A stretch of 64,000 nt of DNA from Kiritimatiellia bacterium (GTDB lineage Bacteria; Verrucomicrobiota; Kiritimatiellia; RFP12; DVOR01). Shown piece after piece: positions 31,791 to 32,391 of this stretch (position 1 is its first letter; each line of letters starts with the position of its first letter). The notes beneath the pieces are model-generated. The model was not told where the DNA came from, searched no databases, and worked only from the letters and a program-made list of their open reading frames with translations. The stretch spans positions 823,286-887,285 of the forward strand of contig JAFXKZ010000002.1 of NCBI GenBank assembly GCA_017531445.1, in the 5' to 3' direction. A program made the translations under genes and the position numbers.

Positions 31791-31821
31791 AAAAAAAGAG
31801 CCGCAGTTGCGGCTCTTTTTT
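31791..31821 (-). terminator. terminator of the CBM48 fusion gene
   Basis: A near-perfect stem AAAAAGAGCCGCA-GT-TGCGGCTCTTTTT with A and T runs on both sides, so it can act in both directions. It lies 21 bases after the stop. Confidence 0.92.
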
Positions 31822-31842: not shown

Positions 31843-32310
31843 TCAGTCAACAATCTTGACGCTGTTCATCGAACCCATATCATTCTGCACCCAATCCGGG
31901 CATTCGCAGTCGGCGCACCATACGCCGTCAATAACGAATTTATACTCATACTTGCCTTTGGGAAGATTGAGCACGCAGGTGAATTCACCGGTTCCCTTTT
32001 TATCTTCCATCTGCTTGGCCGTAGGATCCCAGTCGTTGAAGCTGCCGGCGAGGAACACTTTGCTGCCGATTTCAGCGCGCACGGTAAAGGTGACGCGGCT
32101 CTTCTTTTCGGCTTTGGGGGCAGCCTTGGCAGCACACTTCTTCGCAGGCTTTGCTTCGCAAGCGCACTCAAAGAGATCTGCGGTTTCGGGAACTTCAGGC
32201 TTAGCAGCCTTGGCCACCTTGGTGGACTTCGCCGCTGTGGCCTTCTTCGCGGGAGCGGCCTTCGCCGTTGCCTTCGCGGGGGTTGTCTTGGTGGTCTTCT
32301 TCGTAGCCAT
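31843..32310 (-). CDS. histone-H1-like Lys/Ala tail fused to a CBM48/AMPK-type glycogen-binding domain
   Basis: A 155-residue protein in two parts. Residues 1-70 are a Lys/Ala/Thr-rich tail (MATKKTTKTTPAKATAKAAP...) like the C-terminal tails of histone H1 or chlamydial Hc proteins, interrupted by DLFECACEAKPAKKC. Residues 71-155 are an E-set/CBM48-type domain: VFLAGSFNDWDPTAKQM, EFTCVLNLPKGKYEYKFVIDGVW, CPDWVQNDMGSMNSVKIVD. The two parts suggest an unusual DNA/RNA- or polyanion-binding glycan sensor; no function is established. It has a strong promoter (TTGACA-16-TATAAT), a TAAGGAG box and its own terminator, so expression should be high and monocistronic. Confidence 0.85.
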   Translation of the reverse strand: MATKKTTKTTPAKATAKAAPAKKATAAKSTKVAKAAKPEVPETADLFECACEAKPAKKCAAKAAPKAEKKSRVTFTVRAEIGSKVFLAGSFNDWDPTAKQMEDKKGTGEFTCVLNLPKGKYEYKFVIDGVWCADCECPDWVQNDMGSMNSVKIVD

Positions 32311-32363
32311 CTACTTTTACTCCTTAAAACGAATGCTTCCTCATAGAAAGAAAACGCGTTGAT

Positions 32364-32391
32364 ATTATAGTATCTTTTGTTATCATGTCAA
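32364..32391 (-). promoter_or_regulatory. consensus sigma-70 promoter of the CBM48 fusion gene
   Basis: On the minus strand TTGACA (32391-32386), a 16-bp spacer, and TATAAT (32369-32364): both hexamers are perfect. The start codon is 54 bases downstream. Confidence 0.92.

Follow-up and report, generated by a model that had tools for sequence, protein, structure and literature searches.

For granules of PHB and of polyphosphate, bacteria are known to have dedicated nucleoid tethers (PMC13052382, PMC9239181), single proteins that space the granules along the nucleoid. PhaF and PhaM each join a part that binds the storage granule to a histone-like part that binds DNA (PMC13052382), and AlgP carries a KPAA-type disordered tail, its loss disturbing the spacing of polyphosphate granules (PMC9239181); the net charges of AlgP and PhaF are +55 and +35 (PMC9239181). 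A review from 2025 on how bacterial organelles are positioned says nothing of glycogen (PMC13052382); in E. coli, glycogen undergoes phase separation, collecting at the old pole and pushing the nucleoid out of the way (PMC12706056).

For glycogen recognition, the closest described system is the glycogen-binding domain of the AMPK beta subunit (PF16561; PDB 1z0m, 1z0n, 4yef), in which mutation shows W100, K126, W133 and N150 (rat AMPK beta1 numbering) to be critical for glycogen binding (PMC4032982). Stand-alone CBM48 proteins of about 100 amino acids also occur in several bacterial phyla. A literature search found no paper characterising such a small bacterial CBM48 protein, and nothing on point for a glycogen–nucleoid tether or an H1-like tail in this phylum.

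Here we analyse a gene from a Kiritimatiellia bacterium of the gut, located in a stretch of 64,000 nucleotides that we call the window (Table 1). A preliminary description of the locus had read its product as a Lys/Ala/Thr-rich tail fused to a glycogen-binding E-set domain, with a bridge between nucleic acid and glycogen as one possible role. The observed features are confirmed and this interpretation is partly supported: the two-part architecture is backed by the sequence, by profile search and by the predicted fold, and a bridge would be consistent with the data and has strong precedents in PhaF, PhaM and AlgP.

Table 1. Features of the tailed CBM48 locus, in window coordinates
Feature	Position	Strand	Details or basis
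Tailed CBM48 gene	31843..32310	-	155 aa, ATG at 32310, stop at 31843
Tail, residues 1-70, disordered, K/A/T/P-rich	32101..32310	-	Sequence and AF2
AMPK-beta-type CBM48 domain, residues 70-155	31846..32103	-	PF16561, AMPK beta chains, AF2, Foldseek
Acidic-hydrophobic patch ETADLFE, residues 42-48, mid-tail	32167-32187	-	Sequence
Sigma-70-type promoter, TTGACA-16-TATAAT	32364..32391	-	Perfect, 12/12 matches
5'-leader hairpin near the expected transcript start	32335..32355	-	Folding, genus comparison
Ribosome-binding site TAAGGAG, 9 nt ahead of the ATG	32320..32326	-	Sequence
Symmetric intrinsic-terminator shape (AAAAAAAGAGCCGCAGTTGCGGCTCTTTTTT)	31791..31821	.	Sequence, fold z -5.3

Results

An AMPK-type glycogen-binding domain

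The C-terminal half of the protein matches PF16561 (AMPK1_CBM) over residues 70-155 with an E value of 1.5e-15 and 57.6 bits, against a curated cut-off of 26.8, and the same domain matches AMPK beta chains in the PDB at an E value of 1e-11 and about 30% identity. The AF2 model, with 18 sequences as input, forms an early-set beta-sandwich with a pLDDT of about 90 over residues 71-155, for which the best Foldseek matches are the AMPK glycogen-binding domains 1z0m and 1z0n (TM-score by target up to 0.89, rmsd 1.7-1.8), as expected from the CBM48 fold that had been proposed for these residues. All four glycogen-contact residues of AMPK are present, as W94, K124, W131 and N149; none of them varies in any of 58 close relatives, and they are almost unchanged across 105 diverse ones. 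A glycogen-binding domain is thus supported by the profile match, the modelled fold, the contact residues and the operons described below for relatives, and on this basis the protein very probably associates with glycogen.

The likeness to AMPK beta is one of fold, sequence identity and contact residues, whereas the window protein is bacterial, carries an N-terminal cationic tail and ends right after the CBM48 domain, without the remainder of the beta subunit. It is a single-domain CBM48 protein like the stand-alone bacterial ones, but these are without a long tail. Pfam profile searches of the 155 residues found neither a catalytic nor a sequence-specific DNA-binding domain, and no phasin domain is among the Pfam matches, the granule-binding part being the CBM48 itself. 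The protein also contains seven cysteines (residues 49, 51, 59, 112, 132, 135 and 137); C132 adjoins a binding-site tryptophan and is common to most close relatives, and the tails of some relatives bear cysteine as well.

A conserved cationic tail, shared with other proteins of the genus

Residues 1-70 hold 18 lysines, no arginine and six acidic residues, for a net charge of about +12, the remainder being mostly Ala, Thr and Pro. The AF2 model places no secondary structure before residue 70, with a pLDDT of about 45-65. Searches of Pfam and NCBIfam at E values up to 1 returned no profile match to an Hc1/AlgP-type H1-like family, and the likeness of the tail to histone H1-like proteins is one of composition only. 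By descent the window protein is not a phasin, and profiles do not place it in the H1 family; its place is among AMPK-type CBM48 proteins.

The protein is carried by 15 of 17 genomes of the genus, including all nine near-complete ones, and every orthologue with a readable start has a K/A-type tail, in which composition and positive charge are kept while the sequence drifts. The conservation of the tail in orthologues, which the preliminary description had left to be checked, therefore holds within the genus, where its length ahead of the domain edge ranges from about 52 to 76 residues. Family f5, a neighbour within the order, has tails that are also K-rich, but shorter (typically 20-45 residues), and other families of the class have a short N-terminus. 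About 13 of 14 genus members retain, midway along the tail, an acidic-hydrophobic patch (ETADLF, TDDLF or EDLPLD) that looks like a short binding motif.

Used as a protein query in its own genome, the tail found only itself, such low-complexity sequence probably scoring poorly, and other tailed proteins were located by a DNA pattern for MATKKT. The same K/A-rich start is present on AccA of the genus, in full in three genomes and cut in one, as an N-terminal extension of about 45 residues (L165:1501-2445, that is G000:C2:308575; also L152 and L167). A tail of the same type, K/A/P-rich and more than 100-200 residues long, is carried by a DksA/TraR zinc-finger protein (L153:1501-2700, that is G000:C2:16503; also L164), and a short MATKKT-type start is found on HU in two genomes of the genus. 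HU was set aside as an explanation of the tail, as HU in the genus mostly carries no more than a few basic residues ahead of its fold. By these sequence comparisons the tail is a recurrent local module in the genus; its presence on DksA and HU leans towards nucleic acid, and that on AccA leans against it. Since AccA and the DksA/TraR protein bear the same tail type and HU is mostly without long tails, the composition of the tail does not prove DNA binding.

A stand-alone gene under a strong promoter

The window gene stands alone under its own promoter. The TTGACA-16-TATAAT consensus and the TAAGGAG site named in the preliminary description were found again, as was a hairpin with the shape of the bidirectional terminator named there. 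Perfect promoter sites are rare, with three in 464 kb sampled from the same genome (the genomic background being a 20-stretch sample of 400 kb); the other two, both read by eye, lie at nusA and at a Fic-like gene. The nusA promoter (L138:13017, G000:C1 about 433017) is followed by a leader like that of the CBM48 gene (GGGCGTTTTCTA...). In 14 genus members whose upstream DNA could be read, the promoter scores 10-12 out of 12, against an average of 6.8 in composition shuffles, 1.5% of which reach 10, and a TTGAC-type promoter scoring 9-11 out of 12 is usual in family f5.

Downstream of the promoter, a hairpin folds in 14 of 14 genus leaders with differing stem sequences. Together these hairpins sum to an energy of -131, where shuffles average -66 and go no lower than -98, and the hairpin of the window's own leader is weak by itself (z of about -1.2 to -1.9); the element looks like a stabilising 5' hairpin. 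GGAG is found at a similar place in genus relatives. The terminator region (63 nt) folds at -27.4 kcal/mol with the symmetric hairpin flanked by A and T runs on its two sides; a simple terminator scan missed this hairpin, and a hairpin with a T-run recurs downstream of the gene in genus relatives. These signals suggest that the protein is highly expressed and abundant. Within the genus, the gene neighbourhood was rejected as a clue to partners: trxB adjoins the gene in only one near relative with data, and elsewhere the gene moves.

Tail-less relatives in glycogen operons

By gene content the genus makes glycogen. A GT5 glycogen synthase is encoded in all 17 genomes and a phosphorylase in 14, the window's own half-complete assembly being among those without the latter; in this assembly glgA adjoins a CBM48-bearing glgB (C1:250727-254378). 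PHB was discarded as the storage polymer, PHA synthase being encoded in 0 of 17 genomes.

In six other Kiritimatiellae families we find tail-less, single-domain relatives (ORFs of 99-135 codons) inside glycogen operons, which, like the 5'-leader hairpin, go beyond the preliminary description. The relative lies directly before a phosphorylase (PF00343 with DUF3417) in G315, G321, G323, G325, G326 and G333; GlgA and GlgB follow in five of the six operons, the contig ending in G325, and a glycogen debranching enzyme (GDE) directly precedes the relative in four (G315, G321, G325 and G326), the full layout being GDE-CBM48-GlgP-GlgA-GlgB. In G315, G323, G325 and G333 the operon relative is the sole AMPK1_CBM match of the genome. 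The tail is seen only in forms outside the glycogen operon; in the window's order the gene stands by itself, has a strong promoter of its own and encodes the tail.

Across the class, PF16561 is found in 258 of 346 genomes and GT5 in 310; co-occurrence of GT5 with the small CBM48 protein was dropped as an argument because GT5 is near-universal, leaving gene adjacency as the informative signal. The GT5 proteins of the class fall into two score classes, a divergent one of about 110-125 bits, nearly all from the window's order, and a canonical one of about 240-260 bits that covers many other families.

In a tree of 83 domain sequences, built from few columns, with many unresolved forks and no established root, the genus forms one clade (98). 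A wider clade unites it with the neighbouring tailed family and with further families of the order (SH-aLRT 96), and this is nested in a larger group of weak support to which the operon forms belong. The simplest reading of these sequences is that a tail-less operon protein left the operon, gained a strong promoter and grew a cationic tail, longest in the genus, the direction of change from operon to stand-alone gene being our inference. A contig titled Akkermansia muciniphila (L020, CAMBQV010000003.1) encodes a Kiritimatiellae-type CBM48, the same protein as in a genome of the window's order (G155:C3), and its title is probably wrong.

Other AMPK1_CBM fusions

The same domain is found in other fusions: with HPr (L064:1042-1728), with a response-regulator receiver (L113:576-1202, minus strand), with a dynamin-like GTPase in a genome of the window's genus (L016:37-1743), with a protein that has an apparent membrane segment (L123:512-1027) and, in a deltaproteobacterial MAG, with a ParA-type ATPase (L030:5335-6405). 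The last is possibly another design for glycogen positioning, on the ParA/McdA principle.

Discussion

We propose, with about even confidence, that the window protein is a non-catalytic coat protein of glycogen whose tail tethers the polymer to polyanions, most likely the nucleoid; the nucleoid tether taken by itself we rate at even or slightly below. The CBM48 half would bind outer alpha-1,4-glucan chains on the surface of the glycogen particle, and the flexible Lys/Ala-rich half would point outward and bind polyanions non-specifically, most likely nucleoid DNA and possibly RNA. With many copies of the protein on each particle, avidity could hold glycogen on the nucleoid and spread it along it, without coalescence and segregation to one cell end. 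The protein would then play for glycogen the part that PhaF and PhaM have at PHB granules and AlgP has at polyphosphate.

What the analysis supports is the domain, its fold and contact residues, the disordered cationic tail and its conservation, the stand-alone gene with its strong promoter, and the operons of relatives; from these we infer glycogen binding itself, DNA binding, high abundance and a role in positioning. The window protein may thus work like a nucleoid-tethering granule protein, yet it differs from each precedent. In PhaF and PhaM the granule part binds polyester and the tail is C-terminal, whereas the tail is N-terminal here, in a genus without PHA synthase. AlgP and the window protein are alike in their disordered K/A-rich, H1-like tails, but AlgP joins its own to a helical N-terminal domain and serves polyphosphate.

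Several observations weigh against a tether. The net charge is modest beside those of AlgP and PhaF, and the presence of the same tail on AccA and the DksA/TraR protein could mean that it is a habit of the lineage with some general role; moreover, HU of the genus is mostly without long tails. The operon relatives manage with no tail at all, so tethering to the nucleoid was not required for the ancestral role, and a pure DNA tether would not need the conserved acidic-hydrophobic patch.

That patch, which suggests a short protein-binding motif, would fit a protein that is a glycogen accessory or scaffold with no role at nucleic acid, sitting on glycogen through its CBM48 half, its tail being an entropic, solubilising or protein-binding arm that brings in or stimulates glycogen enzymes or keeps particles apart by charge repulsion. 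The genes of the tail-less relatives lie with those for GlgP, GlgA and GlgB, so the original role was probably linked to enzymes, and AccA, a metabolic enzyme, bears the same tail type. Nevertheless, the confinement of the tail to forms outside the glycogen operon indicates that it is not needed beside these enzymes, and its wealth of Lys with almost no Arg or aromatic residues is closer to H1-like tails than to typical protein-binding arms, so that we regard such a scaffold as rather unlikely.

Less probable still is a sensor of glycogen level akin to AMPK beta, in which occupancy of the CBM48 would free or hide the tail for nucleic acid or RNA polymerase and couple the carbon store to expression. 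The fusions of the domain to HPr, a response-regulator receiver, a ParA-type ATPase and a dynamin-like GTPase would fit a sensor, as would the tailed DksA/TraR-type protein, but the protein is without a catalytic or sequence-specific DNA-binding domain, and its conserved strong promoter better fits a structural protein than a scarce regulator. Finally, it is very improbable that this is an ordinary small CBM48 protein with a near-neutral, low-complexity expansion of no specific role, as the varying tail length within the genus and the similar tails on unrelated proteins might suggest, because the K-rich, R-poor composition, the positive charge and the very presence of the tail persist, despite sequence drift, in all genus orthologues whose start is readable.

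We know of no glycogen-tethering protein of such a kind in E. coli. It is possible, though we would put it somewhat short of even, that in one Kiritimatiellae order a CBM48 protein of the glycogen operon gained a histone-like tail and a strong promoter of its own and turned into a glycogen 'phasin', the first tether of this polymer to the nucleoid, positioning and partitioning it along the chromosome. If so, the tie between glycogen and nucleoid would be a second, opposite handling of a common bacterial carbon store compared with that of E. coli, and active positioning of bacterial glycogen would become testable with one gene. The analysis also offers a likely function for the small CBM48 proteins that are widespread in this class.
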